Below the pieces are notes generated by a model, which saw only the letters and a program-made list of their open reading frames with translations, did not search any database and was not told the origin of the DNA. Source: Diphasiastrum complanatum (Eukaryota > Streptophyta > Lycopodiopsida > Lycopodiales > Lycopodiaceae). Taken from it: DNA of 64,000 bases. Position 1 is the first letter of the stretch. Each line of letters starts with the position of its first letter. Made by a program: the position numbers and the translations under genes. The DNA lies in assembly GCA_029204225.1 (NCBI GenBank), contig CM055095.1, positions 59,990,557-60,054,556 on the forward strand. The letters run 5' to 3'. Positions 11,489 through 59,142 of the stretch are shown here, piece by piece.

Positions 11489-11965
11489 TATAAAGACACT
11501 AAAAGGATAATTCCTAGGATGAGGATAAGAGAACACAATAAAAGAGACAATGGAGCCAAACCACCCAACCAATCCTAGATCAAAACTGGATCTAGCCCCC
11601 AAGACATGCCATGTGAAGGAAGAGGAGAAGAGAGAACTTGGTAACCTAAACCCAACATGTCGAAGGGAGAATCCCTACCTCATTATATAGAGAGTAGAGT
11701 CCTGTGCATGACACCATGCAACCCCCATGCAAGTCAACTATAAATAGATCACATTTCTTCATGCAGTCCTCCTGCCAATATCCATCACATAGACATGCAA
11801 TACTCCATATGTCTCAATTAGAGTGTCTGGGTCCTCTCAAGATTATTATTCACAAATAGGCCTCAGCATGGAATTAAATCTCGACATGACCAATAATCTC
11901 GAGTACTGGAGGCCGGTTTACCATATTAGGACTATTCCAGGTCCTAACCGAATATGGCCATAACA
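11489..11965 (-). mobile_element. 5' LTR of the truncated non-coding element
   Basis: On the minus strand it starts TGTTATGGCCATATTC and ends TAGTGTCTTTATA, 477 bp. It is flanked at 11966-11970 by CATGT, the reverse complement of the ACATG target duplication of the right copy. This means both copies derive from one insertion that was later duplicated with its flank. It keeps the ~37-bp block around GGGGGCTAGATCCAG that the right 5' LTR lacks. Confidence 0.88.
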
Positions 11966-12097
11966 CATGTAGTTGGGCCTGGTTCAGAGACATGGGATGA
12001 TGATATGGGATGACTTAGAAAATGGATATGATATCTCATTTCTCATGTTGATTCCTCTACAAGATCTTCCTGATCCATCATCCCTTGTGTTCGCCAC

Positions 12098-13471
<1,374 letters not shown>

Positions 13472-13472
<1 letters not shown>

Positions 13473-15029
13473 CCTTTGTCTATGTTTCTTCTCTCTCTAT
13501 GTATGTTGTATGTCTCTGTCATTTCGCTGCATTTCTTGTTTTGGTTATATCTTTCAGGTAAGCAGTAACTATGCATGAATTTTTGTAGCAAAATTAGCTT
13601 GCCAACGATCTACTATATGCTTCAATTCACCATCTTTCTATGAGTGTATGATTTTTTGATATCTTATAAGCATGAAGTATTCAGTATGTATAGGGGAAGC
13701 CCCCCCCCCCACCCCCAAAGGGGCTTCCGGTAGGGGAGGCACCCGAGGGCGGCAACCCAAGCATACCTCCTTGGCGCGGAAGACCCCCAAGGGCCTTCCC
13801 AGGCATAACAACCACCAAAGCTTTTTTTTCATCATAACAATTTTTTAAAATTAGAAGGCTAGGGCCTATTCGCGGCTCACATTTTTTTAAATAGTAAATA
13901 TGTAGCTCTTTGCCTTTTCAAAAAGAGGAAGTCTCATATTTATGCTCATTATCAATTTTTTTTAAATAGTAATCGTGCAAATATATGCAAGTTTTCAAAT
14001 ATAGTAATTGTACCTTATAGATTGTAAGTTGTTTATGCAACTCTTCAAAAATAGTAACTATAGTTTACAGATTGTAAGGTATTTGTTACACAATCGAATG
14101 GAATCACTAAAAAAAAATACCATTCTTAGTGTTTGGTTTATGCCAAAGTTCCTGAGTAATAAAGTACATGTTGAAAAATGAAAAAACGTCTATCTTGACT
14201 TTAGGTTTTGGAAAAGTTTTTTTCTATGTGTATGGAATGTTTCATATTGTAAATGTCAAATTTGGCCTAGAAGAAACTTGAGCTACATGTTTTCTTGAGT
14301 CTAGTTTGTCATATACAACATGCATATAGAATGTAGACATAGAAATGCCAATTATGGGCTTGTAGAAACTCGTGGCATATCACATGCAATAATTGTAAGT
14401 GATCCAAAGTGACATGCAAGGCATGCACAAAGTGAATTGAACACATGCATAGTGATTTGGACAATTCTAGTTTTGAATTTGACACTTGGTAAAAGTAGGT
14501 AGAAATGCATGCATGTAAAGTGACAAATGTCACTACTTTGCTAGTTATCACTTTTAGATGTGTATGGAAATAGGAGAGAGATGGTTCTACCTCTACTCCA
14601 ATCTCCATAAATATGTGTAAGCTCTCTCATAATTTTTGATGAAGAACCAAGCTTTGAAACTATTCCATGTCAATTTGGATCTATGATATTGTTTGCTTGA
14701 ATTTTGCTCTCTCTTTCTCTCTCTAACTCAAGTAGAAGGTTATGTTAATGCATTAAATTCTTGTACTTCTTCTCTTTTGATATTGCAAGCAATCATTCTT
14801 TGATTATTATCATGCTAGATTGTGCTTTGGTCATAAAGTCTAGAACTAGATCTTGATACTCAATCTAGAATCAGTTTATGTGCGAAAGACAAAGCTTAAC
14901 AAGATCATTCACACTTGAGGATTGTTTCCCACACATGTGAACTTGCTAGCCATCATAGCCATACTGCTAATTTCACATCCATTTGATGGATCTTCATATG
15001 GGTGATATTAGTTCTCATCTTGTCTTACC
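13472..15029. other. Gene-free interval with a short GC-rich island
   Basis: A GC-rich block at about 13692-13810 has GGGGAAGCCCC pairing with GGGGCTTCC, and C-runs, inside AT-rich DNA. The rest (13811-15029) is AT-rich without a supported gene. Identical content, inverted, is present near 51720-53100. Confidence 0.6.
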
Positions 15030-15900
15030 CCACTTTGAATGCTAAATCTACTCAATTATTTCTCATTGAAGATATAAGAGAGTCCCAAATTCTTTATAAT
15101 AAACAAAAAAATAGTCCCAACTTAATCCATCAAAAGCCTTTTCCAGGTCTAGTTGATGAATAGCTCGTTAAAAAAAAAAAAAATCCAATTCCACCATAAA
15201 TCAAAAACACTATCCAAAGTACTCAGTCTTCCTACTTGAAACCACCTTGTTTGTTTTTTAAATGAAAAAGCAAAAAATCCAACTTCCTAGCAATGAACTT
15301 CAAGGGTATTCTATAATGAGTATTGAGCATCATTCAAGATTTTTAATCTTCGTTAAAAAACTGAATCAAAATTCTTGGAAACAAGTACATTATATCCTTC
15401 ATAATACTTTTTGAGATATGATAGTTTTCTTAAATGATAAGCAATGGCTTCATCGTTTCTCCTTTAAAGTCATTCCAAAAAGTTCTATACATTTCCATTG
15501 AAGATTTTATCTATTCATGGATTTTGTCTCCTTTAAGAATGGAAAGAGTTTCATGAAATTATTTCTCTTTTAGTAAATCTTTCAATTTGCTAATTTTGCA
15601 GCATCCAGCTTCTTATCCATAAAATAGTAGTTGTCCACCAACATACATTTATCAATAATCTCAATTCATCATAAGACGACACAAACTTCCTTTTGATGAT
15701 GTTGGGATCTATCAAAATTCTTCTTCCATCTAACAAGCCTTTATAATCTTATAGTTTTGACCTCTTCAAGAAAATCTAGTGATGAGTTCACCATTCTTTA
15801 GTAAGTTGACTCTACATCTTTTTCTAAAGTTGTTTGTTCTACACATATTTTTTTAACAACTTTTGACGTCCATAGCTCTTCCTTTTTTGGCCTTTTCTTT
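15030..15900 (-). pseudogene. LINE (plant L1) reverse-transcriptase remnant, left arm
   Basis: The minus strand contains, across broken frames, blocks of a plant L1 reverse transcriptase. One resembles the FIxGRQ fingers region (NKQGGFKLGR), followed by STLDNVFDLW, and the palm motif LDLEKAFDGLSWDYF lies near 15080-15150. Stops and indels are frequent. It is the inverse of the copy at 50820-51700. Confidence 0.75.
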
Positions 15901-16231
15901 TTCCCATTCTCCCAAAAAGTTCTTAAAGTTTGTGTTGGAATACAAAAAAGATGTTGTATGAACAGAGTAAATTGAGACTATTCATGTTCTCAATCAAGAA
16001 ATGTCAAAGTTATATTTTGAAATCAAAAACTATATCAGTAATAAAACAACTCTTATTTATAAGTGAAATTGAATTTTAATGTGTCAATCAATGTGTGAAT
16101 ATATAACTCATGTCATTAACTTCGTATTATTAATGTTTGAATTCAAATGTTTTTGAAACCTTCTATGTTTCAATTTGTATTAAAGCCAAATCTCAATGAC
16201 ATTCATAAATTTTTTTATATAAAAGACTTTT

Positions 16232-16880
16232 TTATTGAATAGTCACAGAGTCTATTTTTTCAACGTACTTCTCCATCATAGATGTATTTTCTAAAGTCAC
16301 ACTCCTCGTTGTGGATACCATGAATGGAGAAATCGATAACTTGCAAAGTGGAAATAAATGATCACTGTGTTGGATCAACTCTGTGTAGTCACAAGTGTTA
16401 CTCAATGGTTCTTGCCCCAACCGATTTCTTTCAATATAACATGGTATGTTTGGAACATCTTTGAGACTTAATAGATATGGACACAAAACTTCATTCAAAA
16501 AATCCTCCTCTAAACAGCCATCAAATGTACCAACAAAAATACCATTGCCAGGTGGATTCATGCAACCTTTGTAAGGGGCATCATCAATCAACAGTGTATT
16601 GATCGGTAACGGTCCACATCATGTGCTCCATAGATAAGTCAATGGCTTAGAAAAAGCTCGAACTCGTCGATTACCAGGCATCCTATACTTTGGGGCACTG
16701 TAACATTTTGTTCGATCCCAAATGATATGAAATCTATATTGTCAATTTCCAGTTATGTTGAAGTATTCAACACAGTGTTAAATACTCCATATTCCAACCT
16801 TAAAACTATTGAAGATATTATCCAGAAACTTGGCTCCTCCATTCCGCAATTGAATGGCCTAATCTCCATGCTTGATGTAC
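16232..16880 (-). pseudogene. NIF/FCP1-like HAD phosphatase, C-terminal domain, left arm
   Basis: Minus-strand frames give KVGIWS, IIWDRTKCYSAPKYRMPGNR, FSKPLTYLW, then NTLLIDDAPYKGCMNPPGNG, EEDFLNEVLCPYLLSL and YIERNRLGQEPLSN. This is the order of the catalytic domain of plant NIF-type (SCP/FCP1-like) phosphatases: the IWS motif, the K-P-L-x-x-L/Y-W block, the LLIDD(S)PYK motif III and the C-terminal FGQ block. The N-terminal DxDx(T/V) catalytic motif is not seen. An in-frame TGA lies between YLW and NTLLIDD, present in both arms. Its natural substrate would be a phosphoprotein such as the polymerase II tail. Confidence 0.72.
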
Positions 16881-17117
16881 CCAACCTTATCACTTGTTTT
16901 TCCTTCCCATTTTTTCACAAGTAACCATTCAAGTTAAGTATTATGTATTTAAAAGGACAACAACTCGACAAGTATTCCAATCCTGTAATACAATAATGGT
17001 CCAAATTAACGTGAAGAAAGTGAATTCAAAAGTTTAAAATATATATACAATATCACATCCTAATATGTTAACAAAAAAATCATTGAATTTTTATGCATTG
17101 TAAACAAGCCAAAAACT

Positions 17118-17708
17118 TTATTCTATAAAAGTTCCAAATTCATTAACAGACATGCAATCCATTTCGTCAAAAATCTGTTGAAGCTCTGCAATAGTTTTAG
17201 AATATGCATATGGTCTATGTAATATTTGTCCAATAGGTGGTCTAAATCTATAACAAATGCCAATCCTAGCTTTATCATCATAATTATTCAACGTGTCTTG
17301 TATTTTTCTGCTCAAAAATTGAATAGCATAATCACATTGAACTGTTGAATTACTTGGACAATCGCATAGAACATCTTTTTCAATCTCCAATGTAGAACAT
17401 GAATCAACAATTGAACATTTAGCTAACTGTATTTGCTGAAAATCATCGCCAATACATTGAAGGTTCACTTTGATGCATGAACCACCATCCACAATTTCAC
17501 AAACATCCACGCTTTTCTGTACTTTTGTAATGTCAATATCACTTTGATGACATGTTTCAACATTGTTTTCCATGAGAGAACCACTTTTTGAGAAGCCCAA
17601 ATGATCTTCGACACAAACTTGAAAGTTACAAAAATCTGAAGTCTCCAATTCAATTTCATCCATACTTGAACGTTGGCAGGTGTGCAATGATGCTGTCAAA
17701 TAACACAA
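17118..17708 (-). CDS. Hypothetical protein, 196 residues
   Basis: An open frame of 196 residues without a recognised domain. It is rich in Cys and acidic residues in its first two thirds (DVCEIVDGGSCIKVNLQC, CSIVDSCSTLEIEKDVLCDC) and ends QQIFDEMDCMSVNEFGTFIE. It lies directly upstream, on the same strand, of the phosphatase remnant, so it may be the N-terminal region of that gene. The inner breakpoint of the inverted duplication falls within it, after about residue 45 (17571). Whether the start at 17708 is native is unknown. Confidence 0.45.
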   Translation of the reverse strand: MCYLTASLHTCQRSSMDEIELETSDFCNFQVCVEDHLGFSKSGSLMENNVETCHQSDIDITKVQKSVDVCEIVDGGSCIKVNLQCIGDDFQQIQLAKCSIVDSCSTLEIEKDVLCDCPSNSTVQCDYAIQFLSRKIQDTLNNYDDKARIGICYRFRPPIGQILHRPYAYSKTIAELQQIFDEMDCMSVNEFGTFIE

Positions 17709-18547: not shown

Positions 18548-18789
18548 TGTGGATAAAGGGTTAGTTGTCGTTTAGCACTACTCACGTTTCTTGGCATACA
18601 CTAGTCGTTGTTTAAGCTCTTGAAATGTACCCTGCCCTTTTTAATATATGCAAGAGAAATGCGTGGGGTGTAGTAACCCTGTTGCTTTTGCGATCAAAAT
18701 TCTTCTTGCGTTGTGTTTGTCGTGTGCCAGTACTGACTCTGTGCGATAGGTGTTGCTGCGTTTCTTTATTGCTAATCGACAAGTTATCA

Positions 18790-18805
18790 AAGGTTATGGG
18801 CCCAC
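18790..18805 (+). other. Primer-binding site complementary to initiator tRNA anticodon arm (half-tRNA type)
   Basis: Immediately after the LTR the sequence AAGGTTATGGGCCCAC contains 14 bases (GGTTATGGGCCCAC) complementary to the anticodon stem-loop of plant initiator tRNA-Met. The usual 3' end is not used. Drosophila copia and yeast Ty5 use this kind of internal primer. The tRNA-like sequence at 55239-55310 in this same window shows the exact complementary stretch. Confidence 0.78.
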
Positions 18806-19054
18806 TATCCACGCACAGACACTCCATCGCGTGAAGCTGATTCTCTGGCTACGGTTTCTGTACAGGGTCGAATAGACGTTTCTTTGATCAGGTTAGAGTG
18901 AGCAAATCGATTGCGTTCTGCTGCGAGGCTGCAAAGCGAGATGGCGGGAGAAATTGCAAATGTGATTGAAGCAAGAATGCTGGAGAAACTTGACTGACCT
19001 ACCACACGGAAGGAGAGCTATAGGTTGCAGATGGGTATTTAAGGTCAATACCAA

Positions 19055-20443
19055 ATGGATGGAACGGTGGAAAGGTATAAGGCAAGATTAGTAGCAAAAG
19101 CGTGTAGCCAAGTTGAAGGTGTTGACTACATTGAGACTTTTGCCCCAGTAATGAAAATGACTTCCTTCAGATTATTGTTGGCATGGGCAACAAGATGGGA
19201 CATGGAAATAGAACAAATGGATGTGAAGACGGCGTTTTTGCATGGGAACTTGCAGGAAGAAGTCTACATGAAGCAGCCCCCAGGTTTTGAGACAGATGGA
19301 CACCAAGTTTGCAAACTGAAGAAAGCCCTCTACGGGTTGAAGCAATCGTCAAAAACTCGGTATCAAAAAATTGACAAGTTCTTTCTTGAAAATGGCTTCA
19401 GTAGATGCTATTCTGACCCAAGCTTGTACATGAAAATATCAGGATCATTGTTCTTTGTTATAGCCGTTTATGTCGATGATTTAATTCTCGTTTGCAATGA
19501 CAAAATTGCACTGAATGACTGTAAAAGGAGACTCAGTCAGGAATTTGATATGAAAGACCTAGGGGCAATCCATTACTACTTAGGAATCCAATTACACAGG
19601 GACAGAAATAGAGGCTTAACCTGGATTACAAAAGAAAACTATGTGGAACAGCTGTTGGACACTTTTCAGATGCATGATTGCTGCAGTGTTTCAACGCCCC
19701 TGGAAGTCGGTCTAAAGCTAAGCAAAGATATGAGTCCCGCATCTGAGCAAGAGAGGGAAATGATGACCAATAAACCTTACAGAAATCTAGTAGGATCCTT
19801 GATGTACACAATGGTGTGTACACGCCCAGACATTGCAGTTGCCGTAACGAAATTGAGCCAATTCCTAACAGATCCTGGCCAGGAACATTGGCTAGCTGCA
19901 AAAAGAGTCCTCAAATATCTAAAGGGAAGTTCAAGCTATGGGATCATTTTCCAAAACAACAATGAAAGCATGAAGGGATTTGCTGACTCAGACTGGGGGG
20001 GCGATTCAGATGACAGGAAATCCACATGTGGTTACATTTTTATGCTAGCAGGATCAGCCATCAGCTGGAGCAGCCGGAAACAGAACTCAGTAGCACTTTC
20101 TTCTACAGATGCAGAATACATGGGATTATGTCATGCGAGTAAAGAGTACCTGTGGTTAAAAAGCTTGCTGCAAGAATTTCAGATTGAACAAACAATAACC
20201 TTGTTCACTGATAATCAGGGCTGTTTGTTTCGTACTAAGAATTCTGGTTTTCACAAAAGAAGCAAACACATAAGCATTCAATATCATTTTGTGCGTGATC
20301 TAGTTCAGGAAGGACAGCTATTGGTTCAATTCTGTCCCACAGCCAGAATGGCAGCTGATATTATGACTAAAGGGTTGTTAAAGTCACACTTTAATTTCTT
20401 AAGAAGCATGATAGGCACAGAAACTATAGATAAATACAAATGA
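19055..20443 (+). CDS. Copia reverse transcriptase-RNase H
   Basis: The uninterrupted 462-residue frame begins MDGTVERYKARLVAK. It shows the Copia RT blocks FAPVMKMTSFRLLLA, MDVKTAFLHGNLQEEVYM and LKKALYGLKQSS, the active site VYVDDLILV, and DLGAIHYYLGIQ, followed by VGSLMYTMVCTRPDIA. The RNase H part has GFADSDWGGDSDDRKSTCGY, NSVALSSTDAEYMGL and TDNQGC, and ends ADIMTKGLL. Catalytic residues look intact. A frame change just upstream (RRAIGCRWVFKVNTK is in another frame) shows one small indel at the domain start. The domain copies element RNA into cDNA. Confidence 0.92.
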   Translation: MDGTVERYKARLVAKACSQVEGVDYIETFAPVMKMTSFRLLLAWATRWDMEIEQMDVKTAFLHGNLQEEVYMKQPPGFETDGHQVCKLKKALYGLKQSSKTRYQKIDKFFLENGFSRCYSDPSLYMKISGSLFFVIAVYVDDLILVCNDKIALNDCKRRLSQEFDMKDLGAIHYYLGIQLHRDRNRGLTWITKENYVEQLLDTFQMHDCCSVSTPLEVGLKLSKDMSPASEQEREMMTNKPYRNLVGSLMYTMVCTRPDIAVAVTKLSQFLTDPGQEHWLAAKRVLKYLKGSSSYGIIFQNNNESMKGFADSDWGGDSDDRKSTCGYIFMLAGSAISWSSRKQNSVALSSTDAEYMGLCHASKEYLWLKSLLQEFQIEQTITLFTDNQGCLFRTKNSGFHKRSKHISIQYHFVRDLVQEGQLLVQFCPTARMAADIMTKGLLKSHFNFLRSMIGTETIDKYK

Positions 20444-21216
20444 GTAGTGAGAGAGGGTTTGTGGATAAAAAGTTAGTTGTCGTTTAGCACTACTCACGTT
20501 TCTTGGCATACACTAGTCGTTGTTTAAGTTCTTGAAATGTACCCAGCCCTTTTTAATATATGAAAGAGAAATGCGTGGGGTGTAGTAACCTGTTGCTTTT
20601 GCGATCAGAATTCTTCTTGCGTTGTGTTTGTCGTGTGCCAGTACTGACTCTGTGCGATAGGTGTTGCTGCGTTTCTTTATTGCTAATCGACAGGCTATCA
20701 ACTAGGAGACCAGCTGGACTTGCTCCTACAACCAACCTGAATGTAGGGCTTGATTACTGGAGTGTTGCACCTCCAAGAGCTGCGAAAGAGAGAAAAGACA
20801 AACGGAACCCAACTGTCACGCAAGCTCTGGTTCCAGGTTACCCAACAAATCCACTTTTGGGAGTAGCTGGTCGAGAAGGGGCCACTTCAGATTTTTGGTT
20901 ACAGGTTTGTCATTACTTTTAAATTTTCCGACATCAAATGACTATAGAAAGAATACTCAATAGCAACATGGAAGGACTTCTAAGTGAAGCACTTTCAAGT
21001 TTTTTTTAAAGTTCAAGACAAGCCATTCTCTCGTGGAAATGCATTCCTTCAACTGGCTGTGTGAACTGTCGCAGACTCAGTAACGAATCGCCAATCTGTC
21101 TATGATCAATGAATTTGTGCCACTGCGTGATTGGAACGAGTAACAAATAGCTATGTTGAAAGATGAATTCTACTAGCACAACTTTTCATATTAGAGAAGG
21201 TACAGAGATGCACAAG

Positions 21217-26339: not shown

Positions 26340-27935
26340 CACTTGTCGAAAGGGCTTAAAAGGCTTGTTGTTTGCGGCTGGTGTGCGGTTGAATGTGGTG
26401 TGCTACGATTCAAGGGCAGATGTAGGTGGAAGGTGATCTAGTTGCGATCGAATGCGGTATGGTGCGGCTCAAAGGCAGATGTAGTTAGAAGGTGGTCTGT
26501 GTGCAGATGAATGCGGTTTGTTTGTGACTACGGATGAATGCGGTATGTTTGTGGTTCAAGAAGGATGCAATTAGAAGGTTATCCGTGTGTGGATGAATGC
26601 GGTGTGCTGCGATTCAAGGGTAGATGTAGGTGGAAGGTGGTAGTTTGCGGTGGAATGCGGTTTAATGCGGTTCAAGGCAGATGCGGTGGGAGTGTAGTCG
26701 TAAGGTGATGGTTGCGGTCGAATGCGGCCTGAGTGCAGTCGTAAGGTGGTGCGAGTGTGGTCTGTTGTGACTGTGGATGAATGCGGCTGTTTGCGATGGA
26801 ATGGAATAATTGGAGGCTCATTGCAGTTGCTATAGTCTATGGGGATCGTCAAATATAACTCCGAACAACGTCTAATATAGATCGTCCATTCAAGTTGTTG
26901 GATGTACTATCGATTCTAGGCCATCGAATGTAAATGGGATGCAGATGGGTGTCAGTTGAAAATAGGTGTAGAGGCATTGGAGGCAAATAGAGTCAGGGGA
27001 CATCGGATGCAAATGGAGATAGACAAAGTCAGATGCAAACAAAGATAGAGGGCATTGGATGCAAACCAAATGCAATTTCGATGCAAGGTGTGGGATCTGA
27101 TGTCTGTTGTACTCGTCATTTGTGATCATCATTTGAAAGTTCTGTGGTCTGGCATGGATTGGTCCGGCTGAGATGGTGAGGGACCCATTCGGTCGAGATT
27201 GGACCTAGAACCTTCGGTCGGATTGAATACAGTCTGTCATTTGAGATTTGACACAGGCCATCGGTTGAGATGTGGCACAGGCCGTCGGTTGAGATTTGAC
27301 ATAGGCCATCGGATGAGATTTGACACAAGCCGTCAGTTGAGATTTGAGACAGGCCATCAGTTGAGATTTGACACTGGCCGTCGGTTGAGATTTAACACTG
27401 GCCGTCGGTTGAGATTTGAAGGGAATGGAGCGTGAAGGGCTGCTGAAACAGTGTGATGCTTTAGGGGGTGAGCGTGGAGGTTTGTCTGGGAGGAATACAG
27501 GGTTATAGTTGAATGCGGTCGGTTGGGATGGAATGCGGTCGCAACGGGTGAATGTGGATGGTTGTGATGGAATGCGGTCGAGATAGGTGAATGCAGATGG
27601 AGGTGGAAGGTGGTCCGTTTGCGATGGAATGTGGCTGTTGCGATGGAATGCGGTCGCCATGAGTGAATGCGAATGGAGGTGGAAGGTGGTTTGGTTGCGA
27701 TGGTGAGGACACCCATCGGTTGAGAAGTGATAGAATCTCTTCGGTAGAGATTTGAACAAGCGCTCTGGTTAAGAATTGAGCAATGGGCTCCGGTTGAGAT
27801 TTAACAGAGTGCGTCGGTTGAGATTTGACACTTGCTGTTGGTTGAAGTTTGATAGAGTGTGCCGGTTGAGATTTGATACAGGTGCTTCGATTGAGATTTC
27901 ACTAAGGTGCTCTGGTTGAGAATGGAAGCGTGAGG
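26340..27935. repeat. Minisatellite-like region built on GAATGCGGT and GAGATTTGA units
   Basis: From 26340 to 26830 and again from 27500 to 27710, units with GATGGAATGCGGTC, GGTGGAAGGTGGT and GATTCAAGGGCAGATG recur irregularly. At 27190-27420 and 27730-27930 the unit changes to CGGTTGAGATTTGACAC. Open frames on both strands here are by-products of the repeat. Such arrays expand by unequal exchange or slippage. Confidence 0.8.
27236..27420. repeat. 24-bp tandem array, about eight copies
   Basis: The unit is CGGTTGAGATTTGACACAGG plus CCAT or CCGT, with substitutions between copies. Because 24 is a multiple of three, both strands stay open: plus encodes a GHRLRFDT octapeptide series and minus a TACVKSQP-like series. 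Further looser copies lie at 27770-27915. Confidence 0.88.
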
Positions 27936-29134: not shown

Positions 29135-30320
29135 GAATTCTTGGAGGGAAAGCTGGTGGTATGGGACATCAGTGATTCCAAAGGGAATTCTTGTGCTAGA
29201 GTGATCTGTAGACCGATGGTTAGCGCTTACTGTAATGGTAATACTAACAAAGAAGTCCATTGGTTTTCTGTTCAGGGTATTTTGGGAAATACTGAGATAT
29301 AGATCTAGATCCCAAATGGTATCTCATTATTTATAAAATTTGGAGGCCCTTAAATCTATTTTTTTTTTTAAAACCTCTACTATTTAGAAATTTCTTAATA
29401 CGAGACAATTGGATTGAGATTCATTTAATTCCTTCCTGTGTAGAACTATGTTTTGAAGGATTGATTATAGTTATCTGAGACAATACTTCCATTTAAGTTT
29501 TGTGAATATGGCTCAAAATCTATTGATGTTTCAATTGATTCAATGGAATTCCAACTTCCTAGACCCAAATGATTATCTCTATTTGGTAGTTCAGTATTAC
29601 AAAGTAGTATTTCTATCACTCGGGATAAGATATTCTATGATTTTGATGAAAGTCCAGTTTGTTATAGTATTGGATACTCATTACTGACTTTTTCAAATCT
29701 TTGATATCTTATACGTTGTCTCTTGAGATCTTTTTATTGGAAATTATGGAAAAAAATTTAAAGGGGGAGAAGAAAAGATAGGAATAAGACTTTTGATGAA
29801 TTAGCCAATTGCATAGATTTTTTGTGAGAAATCCAATATGTGTGCAAAGATTAAACTATTCAATTGAAATAGAGGAACTCTCTAGGGATTGTTTTGAATA
29901 ATCTGGAACCAAAGGGGTTTTGGGGTATTGAGCTATGAGATATTCATGATTATGGATAGTGGTGGTAATGATTAAAATTTATGTTCCACTGATTGGATTT
30001 GCCAAGTACCATTTTGTTATGGATTGGATCAGAACGAATAAAGCTTTAATGTTAACCTTATGTCCAAAGATGTCTGTATAAGTCAACCTAATCTTGGTTT
30101 GAATACTAGGATATGTGGTAGGTTGATTGGTTGAAATTTTTTTTTTAGTAAAAGTATGATGGTTGAAAAACTTGTGATGTGGAATCATTTCACTTCAAAG
30201 ATTTCCCAAATATGTTATTTACTCATGAGAATTAGAGTTCTTTTGTAGCTGAGTTGCAAGATTCTCGGTGAGTTATGTGAGTAACATATGCAGATTGTAA
30301 GATTTTGGTGAAAAGCATGG
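29135..30320 (+). mobile_element. Diverged fragment of the non-coding LTR element
   Basis: Shared landmarks with 55320-56460 in the same order: CTGGTGGTATGGGACATCAG, GGTATTTTGGGAAAT, GGTATCTCATTATTTA followed by GGAGGCCCT, CAACCTAATCTTGGTTTGA, ATTTACTCATGA, TGTAGCTGAGTTGCAAGAT and GAGTAACATATG. The tRNA segment and LTR are not recognisable here. No coding capacity. Confidence 0.72.
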
Positions 30321-38435: not shown

Positions 38436-38447
38436 GCTCTGATACCA
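38436..38447 (-). other. Primer-binding site, initiator tRNA-Met 3' end
   Basis: The minus strand reads TGGTATCAGAGC, the standard plant Copia PBS, three bases after the LTR end. Confidence 0.85.
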
Positions 38448-38608: not shown

Positions 38609-38839
38609 GGATCTTATAAATTAATTCATACTCACAAGAGATGGTTTGTGTGTGATATTACTAAAAAATGAATTTAGTCAGAAGTTTAGTTCTGAAATAG
38701 ATTGAAAGAGCAGTGTGATAACGCGAGTTCCTCAGGCGTCAGAGACAACCATCGTCTAATCAGAAACTAAGTCATAGACGTCCGTGTTCTAATTAGAGTG
38801 AGTAAACAAATGTTATCAAAGAACAATGAAGATAGAAAT

Positions 38840-40505
38840 TATTTACTCATGAGGAATAGAAATTATTTTGTAGCCAAGTTACAAGATCTCAGTAAGATAT
38901 GTGAGTAACATATGTGGGTTCTGGTGGAATCTGCCAGATAAAAATGTGTTTATGTACTGGGTCATAGTGAGATTATTCACATATGTGCACGATTAATCTT
39001 GTATGAATCTACTGTGTATTCCTAGTTACTAGTGTTATTTGGTGCACTTAACCTAGTCGGTGAACATAAATATGTGATCAAGTATTGTTTTGATAGATAC
39101 ATGCAGAGTTAACAAATCTTTGGATTGAAGATTTATGGATTAACTTATAAATGGTTTGAATGAGGATCTAAATGTGGTGTCATACTAGTATAATTAAGAT
39201 CTGAACCTAGACATTTGAGATTTCTGAATCATTGGCAATTAACTTGAGTAGTTGATTACTCCAGGATAAAGTTAATTGGTAAAACAATCAGTGTGATGTG
39301 GATTCACCGGAAACTAATGGTTTTGAATTATATTGCTTGTAAGACGCATGATTAGTGAATCATTTGGGTTCATCAGTTAAAATTGTGTGCATTGGATATA
39401 CAGTATTCTTGGGATAGAGTATTCTTTAGTTAAGGAAGGGACTTAGCTCATTAGTGATTGTATCCCAGAGAGCTCAATTGGATAACGAATCATAATGGAT
39501 CCAAGAATAATAACTGAATTGATATTCAGCAAGACTTTGGGTATCTAGATGTGATTCTGGATTGTAATCTAAAGTTTTTTGTAGTTGAAGATGATTGTCA
39601 TTTTGGTATGCGTTCAGTCTTTAATTATTAGTGGTTTATAGAGCTTGAATCTTTCACTTCAGTTAAAGAATCCTATTTGAAGAATATTCCTAACTCCAGT
39701 ATTTTCTTAGTGGAAAGATTTTGGAATAATTCTTATTTTTCCTGGGTTAAGTGGACATATACCCCAGTATCCTATCAATGATTAAGTATGGTTTTGGGAT
39801 TCCAGAAAACTATGATTGACGAATCATAACTATCTATTTATGATCCGTCAATCATAAATATGAATCTAAATATTTATGATTGACGGATCATAAATAGATA
39901 GTTAATTATTGTCAGAGGACTATAAGGAATTGTAATGGTTCTTAAGTGTGACGATTAAATCTTGGTCTATTAATTGAGTAAGAATTCATATCAGTATTTT
40001 GAATATCTTTACTCCAGTATTATTGAGAACCTATGGATCTCACAGACATTCTCACAAGATAAGTATTTTACTTGTGGAGAATTTAATTTATCTAGTGGAT
40101 GCTATTCTACTATAGTTTATGGTCTGCAGATGCTTGAGTACAGTTCTTCATTTGATTAGATCTCCAGTTATCATAGGAGGCAAACAAGCTATTGAGATGA
40201 ATGAATGCTATTTTCTTGTATTTGGTGCTATGAATAGGAGCATTTAACTCAAAAGAGTATCTGGGATACATAGAGTTGAGTTTTAATCATTCTATATCTT
40301 ACTGATTCTCCTAGAGATTCTAGTTGAGTGAATTATCATATCCTAGAATTGGATTCTAAGGATAGTTGCATTTGGAAGCTTATGAAGTATCTGCCAAAGT
40401 GGTGAATAATTTCAGACTATAATTATTATTATTCTCTTGAACTTTAAATCTCCTATGTTAGGAAATATTTCACTCAGTGGTCCATGTAAGTGATTTACAT
40501 GAAAG
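38840..40505 (+). mobile_element. Fragment of the non-coding LTR element family
   Basis: Closely parallels 56385-58010 of the complete element: TACAAGATCTCAGTAAGATA, GTGGGTTCTGGTGGAATCTG, TTTGGTGCACTTAACCTAGT, CATGATTAGTGAATCATTTG and TATCCTAGAATTGGATTCTA. It stops abruptly at the CT tract at 40513, where the complete copy continues to its polypurine tract. At about 39844-39905 it contains a long near-perfect palindrome built from TTTATGATTGACGGATCATA. No coding capacity. Confidence 0.88.
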
Positions 40506-40510
40506 TGAAG

Positions 40511-47817: not shown

Positions 47818-49226
47818 TCATGAGCTCTGCCACACACTATGACATTCTATATAAGCACACAAACCAACTTGGAGCACAAAAGGATTCAATAATGCTGCTA
47901 ACACCTCACCAATGCTTTGCTTTCTTTTTGTGATTGGCTTACGTGACACAAAATGTTTTGCCGATTTTTCACTATCTCTGAAACACAATCTTAGGAGTTT
48001 AAATTTGTCTTGCACACACTGGCTGACATCATCCGAGGACTCACCATTGTAAAGAACAAACAGAACAGGCTGCAAGTTTGGAATAGTTATATTATTCTCT
48101 TTCAATGGAGGTGTCAGCTCGTAGTAATCCTCAAAAACAGAACAACATACATCATGCATTGCTTTGATGCTTGATTTGATACCGTCTTTTCTATTGTGAT
48201 CCAGAAAGAGAACAATCACACAGACATTGTGTTGTGGTTTAGGGTTGTCAAACAATGGCAGACAATTGACAAAATGTAATTGAAGTCTAAAGACTCAAAG
48301 TTATCAAATATATACAATGTGGGATGCTCCCACAGCGAAGAAGGAAGTGTCATGAAACTTGAGTCTTCAGCTCCACAACAGATGGCCTCCTCATTTTTTG
48401 AAGTTTTTACTTTGTAGAAGAACCTCCATTTGGTGCTACTAGAGGTCCCACCTTTATGCTTAGTATTGTGGACGACAAGATATTTTTGTTTAATATTTTC
48501 TGCAGCTACTCTCAAGGGAATAGGTATAACACCAATCAATTTTGAAGTTATACCTTTGCCTTTTCCATAGTGCGCTCTAACCCAATTCCGACAAAAAGTC
48601 GGGTCGCTGATTTTTGAGAGTTGTGTCATGCTCTCTTTATTGTAGTCACATCTGAAGGCAAGTCTTCTTCTGTAGTGCAAATTCTGTACAACACTTTGTG
48701 CAACCATCTCACGAACCATAAGAAGAACTCCTTCATCAATGTATTTTTCTCTATTTTTTCTTCTAGAATACAATTCTCCATTTACTAGTTTCTTTTGGAT
48801 ACGATCGCACATGGCGTTCGGCATATACCTCAAACATCTGAGCTTCAAATCTTCCATTTCATTTTCAACATATGCATTTTCAAATACATGTCTTGAGCGT
48901 GGCTTAATTTGAACAACATACCACCAATCTTTGTTTAGTCGATCTGGTTGAAAAAATACCTACACATTTACCAATGTTAGGATTAGATATTTGTTATGCT
49001 CACATTTTAATTCACAATAAATAGATGTAATGAAAAAGTAGTGTAGATGACTAATATAACATTGATCACAATTGACAAAAAGAAATAATGTGAAATTCAT
49101 GCACACCTATTCACAATGACGAGGCAACACCAATGTGTCTGAAAAATCCAAGCTTAATGTCTTGGTTGAATCGATAGCAAAAAATCCACTACGATCTTTT
49201 TTTACAGTTGCATTTGACACTCTATT
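47818..49226 (-). pseudogene. DUF4216-type gene with intron, 5'-truncated at the duplication breakpoint
   Basis: Exon 49226-49110 encodes KKDRSGFFAIDSTKTLSLDF then LVLPRHCE. An intron-like segment GTGTGC...AATGTGTAG follows, and the next exon begins VFFQPDRLNKDWWYVVQIKP. The pattern (xxFxxVD...DxxVLxxxxxQVFFxxDxxxxxWxVVxxxKPR) matches DUF4216, found in plant CACTA transposon proteins. The exon ends in TAG where a CAG (Gln) would be expected. The downstream parts 48857-48216 and 48255-47818 are open but in different frames and of unknown function. An inverted relative is at 33180-34070. Confidence 0.7.
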
Positions 49227-49641
49227 GGAAAACAATGTTGAAACATGTCATCAAAGTGATATTGACATTACAAAAGTACAGAAAAGCGTGGATGTTTGTG
49301 AAATTGTGGATGGTGGTTCATGCATCAAAGTGAACCTTCAATGTATTGGCGATGATTTTCAGCAAATACAGTTAGCTAAATGTTCAATTGTTGATTCATG
49401 TTCTACATTGGAGATTGAAAAAGATGTTCTATGCGATTGTCCAAGTAATTCAACAGTTCAATGTGATTATGCTATTCAATTTTTGAGCAAAAAAATACAA
49501 GACACGTTGAATAATTATGATGATAAAGCTAGGATTGGCATTTGTTATAGATTTAGACCACCTATTGGACAAATATTACATAGACCATATGCATATTCTA
49601 AAACTATTGCAGAGCAAAAAAATACAAGACACGTTGAATAA
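49227..49641 (+). pseudogene. Right-arm copy of the hypothetical ORF, truncated both ends
   Basis: Encodes the NNVETCHQSDIDITKVQKSV to YAYSKTIAE part of the left-arm protein. Upstream residues derive from antisense DUF4216-gene sequence, and the C-terminus is altered by a tandem duplication. The frame is otherwise open. It is useful mainly as a marker of the breakpoint at 49227. Confidence 0.75.
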
Positions 49642-49734
49642 TTATGATGATAAAGCTAGGATTGGCATTTGTTATAGATTTAGACCACCTATTGGACAAA
49701 TATTACATAGACCATATGCATATTCTAAAACTAT
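49485..49734 (+). repeat. 127-bp tandem duplication, two units
   Basis: GAGCAAAAAAATACAAGACA at 49485 recurs at 49612 with the whole intervening sequence repeated. It is absent from the left arm. It is followed by a deletion, relative to the left arm, of roughly 220 bp. Confidence 0.95.
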
Positions 49735-49889
49735 GCATATTCACTTTCTTCACGTTAATTTGGACCATTATTGTATTACAGGATTGGAATACTTGTCGAG
49801 TTGTTGTCCTTTTAAATACATAATACTTAACTTGAATGGTTACTTGTGAAAAAATGGGAAGGAAAAACAAGTGATAAGGTTGGGTACAT

Positions 49890-50532
49890 CAAGCATGGAG
49901 ATTAGGCCATTCAATTGCGGAATGGAGGAACCAAGTTTCTGGATAATATCTTCAATAGTTTTAAGGTTGGAATATGGAGTATTCAACACTGTGTTGAATA
50001 CTTCAACATAACTGGAAATTGACAATATAGATTTCATATCATTTGGGATCGAACAAAATGTTACAGTGCCCCAAAGTATAGGATGCCTGGTAATCGACGA
50101 GTTCGAGCTTTTTCTAAGCCATTGACTTATCTATGGAGCACATGATGTGGACCGTTACCGATCAATACACTGTTGATTGATGATGCCCCTTACAAAGGTT
50201 GCATGAATCCACCTGGCAATGGTATTCTTGTTGGTACATTTGATGGCTGTTTAGAGGAGGATTTTTTGAATGAAGTTTTGTGTCCATATCTATTAAGTCT
50301 CAAAGATGTTCCAAACATACCATGTTATATTGAAAGAAATCGGTTGGGGCAAGAACCATTGAGTAACACTTGTGACTACACAGAGTTGATCCAACACAGT
50401 GATCATTTATTTCCACTTTGCAAGTTATCGATTTCTCCATTCATGGTATCCACAACGAGGAGTGTGACTTTAGAAAATACATCTATGATGGAGAAGTACG
50501 TTGAAAAAATAGACTCTGTGACTATTCAATAA
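49890..50532 (+). pseudogene. NIF/FCP1-like HAD phosphatase remnant, right arm
   Basis: Same blocks as at 16232-16880, here on plus: KVGIWS, WDRTKCYSAPKYRMPGNR, FSKPLTYLWST, an in-frame TGA, then LLIDDAPYKGCMNPPGNG and YIERNRLGQEPLSN. The last open stretch (50173-50532) differs from the left arm by one residue (IL versus IF). Stops upstream match the left arm, so inactivation predates the duplication. The catalytic DxDx(T/V) segment is absent. Confidence 0.72.
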
Positions 50533-50819
50533 AAAAGTCTTTTATATAAAAAAATTTATGAATGTCATTGAGATTTGGCTTTAATACAAATTGAAACATA
50601 GAAGGTTTCAAAAACATTTGAATTCAAACATTAATAATACGAAGTTAATGACATGAGTTATATATTCACACATTGATTGACACATTAAAATTCCATTTCA
50701 CTTATAAATAAGAGTTGTTTTATTACTAATATAGTTTTTGATTTCAAAATATAGCTTTGACATTTCTTAATTGAGAACATGAATAGTCTCAATTTACTCT
50801 GTTCTATATACAACATCTT

Positions 50820-51700
50820 TTTTGTATTCCGACACAAACTTTAAGAACTTTTTGGGAGAATGGGAAAAAGAAAAGGCCAAAAAAGGAAGAGCTATGGACG
50901 TCAAAAGTTGTTAAAAAAATATGTGTAGAACAAACAACTTTAGAAAAAGATGTAGAGTCAACTTACTAAAGAATGGTGAACTCATCACTAGATTTTCTTG
51001 AAGAGGTCAAAACTAAAAGATTATAAAGGCTTGTTAGATGGAAGAAAAATTTTGATAGATCCCAACATCATCAAAAGGAAGTTTGTGTCGTCTTATGATG
51101 AATTGAGATTATTGATAAATGTATGTTGGTGGACAACTACTATTTTATGGATAAGAAGCTGGATGTTGCAAAATTAGCAAATTGAAAGATTTACTAAAAG
51201 AGAAATAATTTTATGAAACTCTTTCCATTCTTAAAGGAGACAAAATCCATGAATAGATAAAATCTTCAATGGAAATGTATAGAACTTTTTGGAATGACTT
51301 TAAAGGAGAAACGATGAAGCCATTGCTTATCATTTAAGAAAACTATCATATCTCAAAAAGTATTATGAAGGATATAATGTACTTGTTTCCAAGAATTTTG
51401 ATTCAGTTTTTTAACGAAGATTAAAAATCTTGAATGATGCTCAATACTCATTATAGAATAACCTTGAAGTTCATTGCTAGGAAGTTGGATTTTTTGCTTT
51501 TTCATTTAAAAAACAAACAAGGTGGTTTCAAGTAGGAAGACTGAGTACTTTGGATAATGTTTTCGATTTATGGTGGAATTGGATGTTTTTTTTTTTTTAA
51601 CGAGCTATTCATCAACTAGACCTGGAAAAGGCTTTTGATGGATTAAGTTGGGACTATTTTTTTGTTTATTATAAAGAATTTGGGACTCTCTTATATCTTC
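50820..51700 (+). pseudogene. LINE reverse-transcriptase remnant, right arm
   Basis: Broken frames hold LKFIARKLDFLLFHLKNKQG, GRLSTLDNVFDLW and LDLEKAFDGLSWDYF, the fingers/palm motifs of plant L1-type RT. Many stops. Inverse of 15030-15900. Confidence 0.75.
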
Positions 51701-54655
<2,955 letters not shown>

Positions 54656-54781
54656 GTGGCGAACACAAGGGATGATGGATCAGGAAGATCTTGTAGAGGA
54701 ATCAACATGAGAAATGAGATATCATATCATTTTTCTAAGTCATCCCATATAATCATCCCATGTCTCTGAACCAGGCCAACT

Positions 54782-54786
54782 ACATG
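54782..54786 (+). other. Target-site duplication ACATG (left), repeated at 58749-58753
   Basis: Direct 5-base repeat outside the two LTRs of the complete non-coding element. Confidence 0.88.
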
Positions 54787-55233
54787 TGTTATGGCCATAT
54801 TCGATTAGGACCTGGAATAGTCCTAATATGGTAAACCGGCCTCCAGTACTCAAGATTATTGGTCATGCCGAGATTTAATTCCATGTTGAGACCTATTTGT
54901 GAATAATAATCTTCAGAGGACCCACACTCTAATTGAGACATATGGAGTATTGCATGTCTATGTGATGGATATTGGCAGGAGGACTGCATCAAGAAATGTG
55001 ATCTATTTATAGTTGACTTGCATGGGGGTTGCATGGTGTCATGCACAGGACTCTACTCTCTATATAATGAGGTGGGGATTCTCCCTTCGACATGTTGGGT
55101 TTAGGTTACCAAGTTCTCTCTTCTCCTCTTCCTTCACATGGATCTAGGATTGGTTGGGTGGTTTGGCTCCATTGTCTCTTTTATTATGTTCTCTTATCCT
55201 CATCCTAGGAGTTATCCTTTTAGTGTCTTTATA
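54787..55233 (+). mobile_element. 5' LTR of the complete non-coding element
   Basis: Starts TGTTATGGCCATATTC and ends GTGTCTTTATA. A TATA-like CTATATAATGAGGT near 55057-55071 may be the promoter. Relative to the 3' LTR and to the left-arm LTR it lacks about 37 bp around GGGGGCTAGATCCAG. Confidence 0.9.
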
Positions 55234-55238
55234 TTGGT

Positions 55239-55310
55239 ATCAGAGTTGCGCAGCGGAAGCGTGGTGGGCCCATAACCCACAGATCCCAGGATCAAAACTT
55301 GGCTCTGATA
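55239..55310 (+). tRNA. Initiator tRNA-Met-like gene occupying the PBS position
   Basis: A 72-nt cloverleaf: acceptor ATCAGAG pairs perfectly with CTCTGAT plus discriminator A. The anticodon arm GTGGG-CCCATAA-CCCAC reads CAT, and the T arm CCAGG-ATCAAAA-CTTGG has the A54/A60 loop typical of eukaryotic initiators. As I recall plant initiator tRNA-Met, it differs at about four positions. The A box reads TTGCGCAGCGG and the B box GGATCAAAACT, both slightly off consensus. A TTTT lies five bases downstream (55315-55318). The first seven bases with preceding TGGT make an 11-nt PBS; beyond that the sequence is not PBS-like. Confidence 0.88.
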
Positions 55311-58251
55311 AGGGTTTTCTGGAAAGAAAAACTGGTGGTATGGGACATCAGTAATCTGGAAAGAAAATTATAGGACTGTAAAGATCTGATGATCAATGGT
55401 GTGTTTTAGTACCTAGTCGCGATATGGGAAAAAAAAAACCATTCGATCAAATGTGGGGTATTTTGGGAAATTTTGAGGTTTAATCTAGGTCCCAATGTGG
55501 TATCTCATTATTTACAAAATCAGAGGCCCTCAAATATATTTCTCACTTTATTAATTAATCCTCTACTTCTTAGTGATTTCTCAAATATAAGATATCAGAC
55601 TGATTTATATGATTCTTTCCAGCATGGAGTTATTCTTATGAAAGACTGTTATGTCATATAAATTACTACTTGTGTGAATAGACTTGGAAGTCAGATAAAT
55701 TCTAAAGTCAAAGTGGTTCAATGTCTTGAATCTTGTATTATCTTTGTTGCATAAATAGGTTTCAATGGAATGATTGTACTGTCACTCGGGTTGAAAATAT
55801 TTGAAGGAAAAGTCCTATTTATAATAGAGTGAATCCTTTATTGGAATGCACTTATTACTGACTTTTCTTGGATTTAGATATTTTTATATATCATCTTCCC
55901 AGTTAGCTTTTACTGAATTTATAATTTCTTTAAAAGGAGAGGTGAAAATTCTATTTGGAAATCTGTAGATTGCATAGTTTCGGAAGAGAACCAACTGTGG
56001 TATAGAAATGAGATTTGGTCTGAAAGTAATTTCGGATAGATTCAGAGTAAGATACCTAATTGAAACTTTTCGAAAAAGAAAAAATTTCTAGGGATTGCGT
56101 GGACAATTTGGAAGTAGAACAGGTTTTGATATTTGAATCATTATCTATAAGTAGTATGGTAAAAGGTCAAAGGATAGTCATTCCATTTTGATTGAAATAG
56201 AAGTAAGTTTGATCAGAATTTAAGTCTAAGAGTTATGTATTAGATCAACCTAATCTTAGTTTGAGTACTAGGATCAGAGAGAGGTTGATTGAGTGGAAGA
56301 AATTATGTGATTAGAAGGTAAGTTGGATTGGAAAACTATTGAGAGTGAATGGTATTCGTCTCAGAGATTTTCTCGGACTCATTATTTACTCATGACGAAT
56401 AGAAATTATTTTGTAGCTGAGTTACAAGATCTCAGTGAGATATGTAAGTAACATATGTGGGTTCTGGTGGAATTTTCCAGATAGAAATGTGTTTATGTAG
56501 TGGGTCATAGTGACATTATTCACATATGTACACGATTAATCTTGTATGAATCTACTGTGTATTCCTGGTTACTAGTGTTATTTGGTGCACTCAACCTAGT
56601 CGGGGAACATAAACATGTGATCAAGTATTGTTTTGATAGATACTTGCAGGGTTAACAAATCTTTGGATTGGAGATTTATGGATTAACTTATAAATGGTTT
56701 GGATGAGGATCTAAATGTGGTGTCATACTAGTATAATTAAGATCTGCACCTAGACATTTGAGATTTTTGAATCACTGGCAATTAGCTTGAGCAGTTGATT
56801 ACTCTAAGATGAAGCTAATTGGTAAAATGGTCAATGTGATGTGGATTCATCGGGAACTGACGGTTTTGAATTATATTGCTTGTAAGACGCATGATTAGTG
56901 AATCATTTGGGTTCATCAGTTAAAATTGTGTGCATTGGATATACAGTGTTCTTGGGATAGAGTATTCCTTAGTTAAGGAAGGGACTCAGCTCATTAGTGA
57001 TTATATCCCAGAGAGCTCAATTGGATAACAAATCATAATGGATCCAAGAATAATAAGAGAATTGATATTCAGCAGGATTTTGGGTATCTAGATGTGATTC
57101 TGGATTGTAATCTAAAGTTTTTTGTAGTTGAAGATGATTGTCATTTTGGTATGCGTTCAGACTTTAATTACTAGTGGTTTATAGAGCTTGAATCTTGCAT
57201 TTTAGTTAAAGAATCCTATTTGAAGAATATTCCTAAGCATTTTCTTGGTGGAAAGATTTGAAATAATTCTTACTTTTCCTGAGTTATGTGGACATATACT
57301 CCAGTATCCTATAAATGATTATGATTTTGGAATTCCAGAAAATTATAATTGACGAATCATATGAATCTAAATATTTATGATTGACGGATCATAAATAGAT
57401 AGTTAATTTTTGTCAGAGGACTATAAGGAATTGTAATGGTGCTTAAGTGTGACGATTAAGTCTTGGTCTATTAATTGAGTAAGAATTCAGACCAGTATTT
57501 TGAATATCTTTACTCCAGTATTATTGAGAACCTATGGATCTCACAGACATTCTCACAAGATAAGTAATTAACTAGTGGAGAATTTAATTTTTCTAGTGGA
57601 TGGTATTCTACTACAGTTTATGGTTTGTAGATGTTTGAGTACAATTCTTCATTTAATTGGATCTCCAACTATCATAGGAGGCAAACAAGTCTATTAAGAT
57701 AAATGAATGCTATTTTCTTGTATTTGGTGCCAGTAATGGGAGCATTTAACTCAAAAGAGTATCTGGGATACACAGAGTTGAGTTTTAATCATTCTATATC
57801 TTATTGATTCTCCTAGAGATTATAGTTGAATGAATTATTATATCTTAAAATTGGATTCTAAGGATAGTTGTACTTGGAAGCTTATGAAGTATTTGCCAAA
57901 GTGGTGAATAATTTCAGACTATAATTATTATTATTCTCTTTAGCTTTAAATCTCATATGTTAGGAAATATTTCACTTAGTGGTACATATAAGTGATTTAC
58001 ATGAAGGTGATGTTACTAACTTGTGTTGAATGTAACCCAGTTGAGAAAATGCATCTCTTAGTGTACTTTTCAAACTAAAGCTTATACTTCAGAATAGAGA
58101 TTAACGATTGGAAATTGGTTTATCTCTGAGTACTTGTTTGATATGGAAGTCAGACTAAGGACAATGATTTTCTCGGTTAATATTTAAAGTCAAAGGAACT
58201 ATTCTTGTAATTCCTTCATGTTTGAGGAGCTTCTAAGGATACAAGCAGTTT

Positions 58252-58264
58252 AAGGGAGGCGGAA
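58252..58264 (+). other. Polypurine tract
   Basis: AAGGGAGGCGGAA directly before the TG start of the 3' LTR; one pyrimidine interrupts it. Confidence 0.8.
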
Positions 58265-58748
58265 TGTTATGGCCATATTCGGTTAAGGACCTGGAATAGT
58301 CCTAATATGGTAGATTGGCCCTCCAATACTCGAGATTATTGGTCATGCCGAGATTTAATTCCATGTTGAGGCCTGTTTGTGAGTAATTACCTTGAGAGGA
58401 CCCAGACACTCTAATTGAGACATACTGAGTATTGCATGTTTGTGTGATGGATATAGGCAACAAGATTGCATGAAGAGATGTGATTTATTTATAGTTGACC
58501 TGCATGTGATGGGGTTTGCATGGTTTCATGCACAGGACTCTACTCTCTATATAACGAGGTAGGGATTCTCTCGTCCACATATTGGGTTTAGGTTACTAGG
58601 TTCTCTCTTCTCCTCTTGCTTCACATGGCATGGCTTGGGGGCTAGATCCAGTTTTGATCTAGGATTGGTTGGGTGGTTTGGCTCCATTGTCTACCTTATT
58701 GTGTTCTCCTATCCTCATCTTAGGAGTTATCCTTTTAGTGTCTTTAAA
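58265..58748 (+). mobile_element. 3' LTR of the complete non-coding element
   Basis: 484 bp, starts TGTTATGGCCATATTC and ends GTGTCTTTAAA before ACATG. It has a TATATAACGAGG TATA-like site. Sequence differences from the 5' LTR are numerous enough to suggest an insertion that is not recent. Confidence 0.9.
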
Positions 58749-59142
58749 ACATGAATTGGAATAGGTGATTCAACATAGCTGGAATTTTGTTGTAAACAAT
58801 GTTTGAAGAAATTGTGTCCATGCTTTCATTGCTGGTCAAACCATCTGCAACTTCCAAGTTCTGGATGGAGAGTTCACTTTGAGTTAGCAAACTGGTAGAT
58901 GTTGTAGTAGGAGTGGGCTCCGGGGAGGTCCCAGTGTGGTGACCTATAGGCTGGGATGTTAGGAAAAGCCTAACTGCCTTATTTTCAAAATCTAGCAGAT
59001 CATTGTTTTGTTTCCCAAAAGACATGCTTATCATTCTTGCTACAATGCCTACTTCAAAAGCCATAGCTATGATTTCCATTCCTATTAAGATTCCAATCAT
59101 AGGGGTTGTCAAGAAAGGATCCATTGAAAACCTTTTGATCAT
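58744..59142 (-). CDS. Hypothetical protein, 132 residues
   Basis: Open minus-strand frame beginning MIKRFSMDPFLTTPMIGILI. It has a hydrophobic, Met-rich N-terminal segment that could span a membrane and a Thr/Ser/Pro stretch (TSPEPTPTTTSTSLLTQ). It ends in the flank and end of the non-coding element, so its C-terminus may be artificial. I recognise no family, and the start could be an internal Met of a longer, interrupted frame. It may not be a gene. Confidence 0.25.
   Translation of the reverse strand: MIKRFSMDPFLTTPMIGILIGMEIIAMAFEVGIVARMISMSFGKQNNDLLDFENKAVRLFLTSQPIGHHTGTSPEPTPTTTSTSLLTQSELSIQNLEVADGLTSNESMDTISSNIVYNKIPAMLNHLFQFMF

Follow-up and report, generated by a model that had tools for sequence, protein, structure and literature searches.

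Within the window, the whole 64-kb stretch of DNA analysed here, a 3,962-bp LTR element that is non-coding by open reading frame length (54787–58748, forward strand; LTRs of 447 and 484 bp) carries a complete initiator tRNA-Met in sense orientation at its primer-binding site (PBS). This arrangement is real and amounts to more than a chance likeness. Our preferred reading, a tentative one at slightly under an even chance, is that this LTR retrotransposon copy, either non-autonomous or decayed, captured its own primer, the initiator tRNA-Met, as a template during its final round of replication or not long beforehand. Such a capture was most likely a one-off.

Anatomy of the element

The features of the element and its immediate flanks are as follows, with a single spacer base, T, at 55234 between the 5' LTR and TGGTATCAGAG:

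54782–54786, forward strand: left target-site duplication, ACATG, identical to the 5 bp at 58749–58753
54787–55233, forward strand: 5' LTR, 447 bp, TGTTATGGCC...TGTCTTTATA, with a 28-bp gap relative to both the 3' LTR and the duplicate of the element (copy B, below)
55235–55245, forward strand: PBS, TGGTATCAGAG, 11 nt, of which the last 7 coincide with the tRNA's 5' acceptor strand
55239–55310, forward strand: sense initiator tRNA-Met(CAT), 72 nt, with four differences from a reference plant initiator tRNA-Met (iMet), some of which the host gene may already carry
55311–58264, forward strand: non-coding internal region, ~3 kb, to which a distant relative starting at 29138 is homologous from 55317 on
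55315–55318, forward strand: TTTT, four bases past the tRNA, a possible Pol III terminator or chance
58250–58264, forward strand: purine-rich tract, TTAAGGGAGGCGGAA, abutting the 3' LTR and interrupted by one C and two T
58265–58748, forward strand: 3' LTR, 484 bp, without the tRNA by LTR comparison, ARAGORN and the iMet alignment scan
58749–58753, forward strand: right target-site duplication, ACATG, equal to the left copy

The structural criteria for an LTR retrotransposon are thus all present: two LTRs, a target-site duplication of 4–6 bp, a PBS and a polypurine tract. By open reading frame length, no gag-pol coding is apparent in the internal region, where the longest stop-to-stop piece measures 83 aa against a mean of 85 in 100 base shuffles, in agreement with the initial annotation, which had called the element non-coding. 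The 5' and 3' LTRs differ by a K2P distance of 0.107, or 0.090 when the 5' LTR of copy B is used instead. The PBS is an 11-nt perfect match that begins one base after the LTR and falls below the 12-nt criterion used in PMC6317226.

Since ACATG stands at both outer ends, the tRNA lies inside the element. This bears on one of the two origins first suggested for the arrangement, in which an LTR element landed next to a tRNA gene already in place, and that tRNA has since been mistaken for part of the element. Ty3, which integrates beside tRNA genes, offers a precedent; here, however, the tRNA sits between the LTRs, ACATG occurs at both outer flanks, and the tRNA is preceded by TGGT. On the strength of the common target-site duplication, we rejected this origin as extremely improbable.

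Identity and orientation of the tRNA

ARAGORN reported a single tRNA in the 64-kb window, tRNA-Met(cat) at 55238–55311 on the forward strand, and the Rfam tRNA model RF00005 matched 55239–55310 with 46.7 bits (gathering threshold, 29; E = 4.5e-9 in a 351-base search), spanning the full model (1–71) with no non-standard pair marked. Together, these results bear out the 72-nt sense initiator tRNA-Met with a CAT anticodon described behind the 5' LTR, and its cloverleaf withstood the covariance check that had been proposed for it. A whole-window Rfam run at gathering thresholds with fast filters did not list the tRNA at 55239–55310. All seven acceptor pairs are standard, as first read. Two points speak against the tRNA: the T stem contains one G-U pair, and plain folding of the 74 nt alone (z-score of -2.77, with 3 of 200 shuffles folding equally well) formed the acceptor, D and anticodon stems but replaced the T arm by another hairpin. 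A1:U72, three G-C pairs by the anticodon loop, and A54 with A60, which we take to be the initiator hallmarks, can all be read in the sequence. Each Pol III box region (A and B) carries one change relative to the reference tRNA and the box consensus.

A local-alignment scan of the window against the reference plant iMet scored 136 at the element, 132 at its inverted duplicate and at most 32 elsewhere, so that no iMet-like stretch was found in the window outside these two places. With up to three mismatches, GCGCAGCGGAAGCGTG occurs twice in the window (0.01 expected). One further tRNA-like place, at 7340 on the reverse strand, was similar over 20 nt with nothing further over 270 bases, and we took it as chance.

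The left junction is continuous: TGGTATCAGAG runs directly into the tRNA, which confirms that the same 11 nt double as PBS and tRNA 5' end. The tRNA is preceded by TGGT, which is complementary to the ACCA terminus of a mature tRNA, with a chance probability of ~0.006 given the base composition of the element. On the right, the tRNA ends at the discriminator A and has no CCA. The two acceptor arms, ATCAGAG and CTCTGAT, are exact inverted repeats.

A tRNA in sense orientation calls for a minus strand copied from a tRNA, or for a tRNA gene to have been joined in, because plus-strand copying of the primer would give an antisense tRNA; the earlier argument that simple read-through of the primer would produce the antisense form is therefore upheld. 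A sense tRNA could also have arisen in two stages: an initial read-through copy of the primer in antisense, followed by a flip of the stretch enclosed by the inverted acceptor arms that left the arms unchanged. The exact inverted repeats would explain why no scar is seen, and CCA would not be expected on the right side. Two rare steps would be required, however, and the discriminator A after CTCTGAT would be there by chance (A makes up 0.30 of the element); we consider a flip very unlikely.

A duplicated copy of a single insertion

The second tRNA place in the window belongs to a duplicate of the element:

8561–11965, reverse strand: copy B, comprising 5' LTR, PBS, tRNA (11483–11412) and internal region, with no 3' LTR

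Copy B is part of a long inverted segmental duplication (8561–17578, reverse strand; 49220–58147, forward strand) whose pieces are 95–99% alike and whose arms are ~31.6 kb apart. It lacks a 3' LTR because the outer end of the duplication falls within the LTR element, at 8561, and it has the 5' flank, LTR, tRNA and internal region in common with the main element. Both copies carry the same four tRNA differences; copy B has a fifth, which breaks an acceptor pair, and its tRNA was found by ARAGORN only at a relaxed threshold. The 5' LTRs of the two copies differ by a K2P distance of 0.023, against 0.090–0.107 between 5' and 3' LTRs, which makes the duplication younger than the insertion and leaves one independent insertion. 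We therefore rejected copy B, a segmental duplicate, as a second tRNA capture in the window.

Relatives of the element

Three further places in the window match the internal region:

38838–40508, forward strand: internal fragment of the element's family, 91% identical to the element, without PBS, tRNA or LTR
29138–30290, forward strand: stretch distantly related to the internal region, 64% across ~1.1 kb; no iMet tRNA is recognisable at the corresponding position
4528–4864, forward strand: distant fragment matching the internal region, 69%

The fragment at 38838 contains an inverted 35-nt copy (39827–39861) adjoining its direct copy (to 39895), of which the main element has only the direct one.

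The region upstream of the distant relative resembled the element no better than shuffled sequence. In a comparison of its upstream 200 nt with the tRNA region, the score was reached by 116 of 300 shuffles (0 of 300 in a downstream control), and the best match there, an LTR end followed by TTGGTAT, was within the shuffle range. An LTR match that 12 of 200 shuffles reached was not upheld on retesting (58 of 200 for the 5' LTR; 165 of 200 for the 3' LTR). We accordingly rejected the distant relative as a guide to the ancestral PBS. In the surrounding 1 kb, ARAGORN at a relaxed threshold gave four weak hits, all to tRNA types other than iMet, which we did not count as tRNAs.

The window also contains copia-type sequence, including RVT_2, the copia-type reverse transcriptase. 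A PBS-like 12-nt run, TGGTATCAGAGC, lies at 38447 on the reverse strand; downstream of it, towards 36106, a reading frame contains a retroviral SH3-like domain. This locus is probably a copia-type element with an ordinary PBS. Direct repeats of ~243 bp (96–97%) at 18548–20701 surround an open RVT_2 reading frame (19043–20443) and are perhaps the LTRs of a short copia-type element. A tandem repeat with a 24-nt period at 27189–27443 overlaps long open reading frames of the minus strand, and the window is rich in GA/TC microsatellites. Together with the copia-type reverse transcriptase and the PBSs for initiator tRNA, these microsatellites suggest that the window is plant DNA.

In public collections, TGGTATCAGAGTNGCGCAGCGG had no match in viral_contigs or genome_contigs, which hold viral and prokaryote sequence and may omit the window's own genome; ATCAGAGTNGCGCAGCGGAAGCGTG likewise had none in viral_contigs, which hold viral sequence with the same possible omission. 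These negatives therefore carry little weight.

Age and decay of the tRNA

Half of the LTR divergence (K2P 0.090–0.107) predicts 3.2–3.8 changes per 72 nt of tRNA, and four are observed; the tRNA was thus near the canonical reference sequence at insertion. The sequence comparison suggests that it was nearly intact when the element inserted and afterwards decayed as if neutral, having been either captured in the last cycle or shortly before, or conserved up to insertion. With an extra pre-insertion divergence of 0.02, 0.05 or 0.10, the probability of four or fewer changes is 0.45, 0.16 or 0.018, respectively, and the first two values leave room for a modest earlier history of the tRNA. One independent insertion was examined, and an older origin of the tRNA with conservation is possible.

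Between the two duplicates, differences number 1/76 in the PBS and tRNA, 10/447 in the LTR, 68/2,836 in the internal region and 3/87 in the flank. This comparison, a weak test at one difference in 76 nt, gave no sign of selection on the tRNA after insertion, and the tRNA seems to have been a passenger since then.

Proposed primer capture by template switching

We propose that synthesis of minus-strand DNA on the element RNA had progressed to the leader, immediately 3' of the PBS, when it switched to a co-packaged initiator tRNA near its 3' end, copying it to its 5' end. The minus strand would then have terminated in an antisense tRNA with CTCTGAT at its 3' terminus. This end would have annealed to ATCAGAG in the PBS copy on the plus-strand strong-stop DNA, replacing the PBS in second-strand transfer, which is conceivable given that the PBS and the tRNA's 5' acceptor strand have the same sequence. 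Completion of both strands would give the order LTR, T, TGGT, sense tRNA, internal region, and integrase would have inserted the product with a 5-bp duplication.

The model builds on directly observed features: how the element is laid out, the sense orientation of the tRNA and its LTR-like divergence, the 11 nt of identity, and the duplicated target site. A template switch would account for the orientation, species and place of the tRNA, for the single TGGT and for the lack of a repeated PBS. The left junction is an ordinary one (LTR, one base, TGGTATCAGAG), and the tRNA captured is the species that the PBS selects. PMC4974528 describes Ty1 and Ty3 particles as containing tRNAiMet together with cellular RNAs, and according to PMC4997597, packaged host RNAs such as 7SL are patched into retroviral products, with template switching as the cause. 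Of the two origins first suggested, template switching is our best account, and it was insertion beside a tRNA gene that the common ACATG and the TGGT spoke against.

Several observations argue against this model. Because CCA is absent, a mature donor requires that the switch occurred just inside its end, which a gene or precursor donor does not. Mature tRNA carries m1A58, a modified base that copying has to pass, and A58 is kept in the captured tRNA although copying a mature tRNA must pass modified bases. Annealing in the transfer step would involve just 7 nt, and a flap would be left if the plus-strand strong-stop DNA had continued into CCAGG. Finally, according to PMC5371799, new Ty1 and Ty3 copies do not take their PBS from the primer tRNA, and their plus-strand transfer is described as proceeding via R and U5, so the annealing step would misfit an element that transfers in the same manner.

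The nearest rival to primer capture, although rather unlikely, is a donor in the form of a tRNA-iMet gene or an unprocessed Pol III transcript, joined by microhomology at the acceptor strand through reverse transcription or DNA repair, with AGGGTTTT (55311–55318) as its trailer and terminator. The absence of CCA fits such a donor, as does TTTT at +5 to +8 past the tRNA; moreover, the distant relative is homologous only from 55317 onwards, which means that 55311–55316 may be foreign. TTTT is, however, present in 9% of the 12-nt windows of the internal region. A gene donor acting at the DNA level would also require two breakpoints within the element, and the exact fit to the PBS would be luck.

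Predicted effect on priming

In a predicted fold of a 230-nt local RNA, the PBS has a mean paired probability of 0.88, compared with 0.61 (sd 0.12) when the rest of the tRNA was base-shuffled 50 times, and the predicted duplex energy of the 11-nt PBS is -16.5 kcal/mol, against -37.1 kcal/mol for an ordinary 20-nt one. On these predictions, with the PBS buried and the duplex weaker, an element that has captured the tRNA should prime less well, unless some other benefit comes from the tRNA fold. By analogy, 11 nt may nonetheless be a sufficient PBS: that of Ty1 has 10 nt (PMC4974528), and in HIV-1 six nt of the PBS sufficed if other contacts compensated (PMC7472051).

These predictions bear on another explanation, in which an active family, with this copy as one member, maintains the tRNA. 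There it might serve, for instance, as a tRNA mimic acting in cis to recruit or release the primer, or provide a Pol III promoter. The near intactness of the tRNA at insertion agrees with this, the acceptor stem is predicted within the 230-nt element RNA with pair probabilities of 0.97–1.0, and elements with tRNA-like sequence in their LTRs are known (Helenus, PMC10886601). Set against these points, no iMet tRNA could be recognised at the corresponding position in the distant relative, where no PBS was recognised either; the changes in the 72 nt (four, and five in copy B) approximate neutral post-insertion decay; and the predicted burial of the PBS and the weak 11-nt duplex should hurt priming. 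On balance, we regard a maintained feature as unlikely.

Comparison with known systems

The tRNA-like element near the PBS of HIV-1 resembles our case as tRNA mimicry close to the PBS, but it is a structural mimic and is not known to contain a full tRNA sequence.

A close comparison is Helenus/TRIMp3, described in Kojima 2024 (PMC10886601): these are also non-coding LTR elements with tRNA-derived sequence, those of plants and fungi have a PBS, a PPT and a 5-bp TSD, as does the element here, and one plant case comes from Selaginella moellendorffii. In Helenus, however, the tRNA-like sequence is within the LTRs, whereas our element has its tRNA in the internal part, joined to the PBS, and this tRNA is of the cognate primer species. 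Helenus elements are also short (screened at <1000 bp, the longest reported being 1,263 bp), in contrast to the 3,962 bp found here. The same paper states that complementarity of the tRNA-like sequence to the PBS was sought and none was found; in our element, such complementarity is built in, since the PBS pairs with the tRNA's 3' acceptor strand. ARAGORN found no tRNA in either LTR, and the position of the tRNA outside the LTRs together with the 4-kb length rule out an identity with Helenus. Cassandra, as summarised in the same paper (PMC10886601), is another non-autonomous plant LTR element with the sequence of a Pol III small-RNA gene, but that gene is 5S rRNA, located in the LTRs and serving as a promoter.

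The host-RNA patches of retroviruses, such as 7SL, are alike in that a packaged host RNA is copied into the product (PMC4997597), and they differ in that the patch here is the primer species, placed exactly at the PBS. Self-priming LTR elements, predicted in PMC6317226 to make up 12% of the plant elements surveyed, would be comparable only if our element supplied its own priming sequence; what primes them is a piece of the transcript's 5' LTR that is set free, not a tRNA. Among the matches listed in a limited search of open-licence papers, none described a sense tRNA fused to a PBS, and the terms 'tRNA' and 'PBS' are absent from Gao 2016 (PMC4717578).

Implications

The initial annotation had wondered whether the element might bring along a gene for its own primer. 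One independent insertion, decay-like divergence and a change in each of the Pol III boxes lend this idea no support. It appears decidedly unlikely that a family of plant LTR elements retains the whole primer tRNA in sense at the PBS, whether as a mimic acting in cis or as a primer gene transcribed by Pol III. If such a family did exist, its members would supply or position their own primer, with the acceptor strand doubling as the PBS. In mammals, 3' tRNA fragments of 17–19 and 22 nt target the PBS (PMC7472051), and a complementarity of 11 nt might partly evade silencing by such fragments. Should sister copies also carry the tRNA, the own-primer-gene idea would become testable. A search rule of an LTR followed by TGGN and then a sense tRNA would gauge both the frequency of primer capture and retention within families. 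If the capture reading is true, the element is a genomic record of a reverse transcriptase using its primer species as a template, and it suggests that, for a tRNA with a perfect acceptor stem, the PBS and the tRNA 5' end are interchangeable in second-strand transfer.
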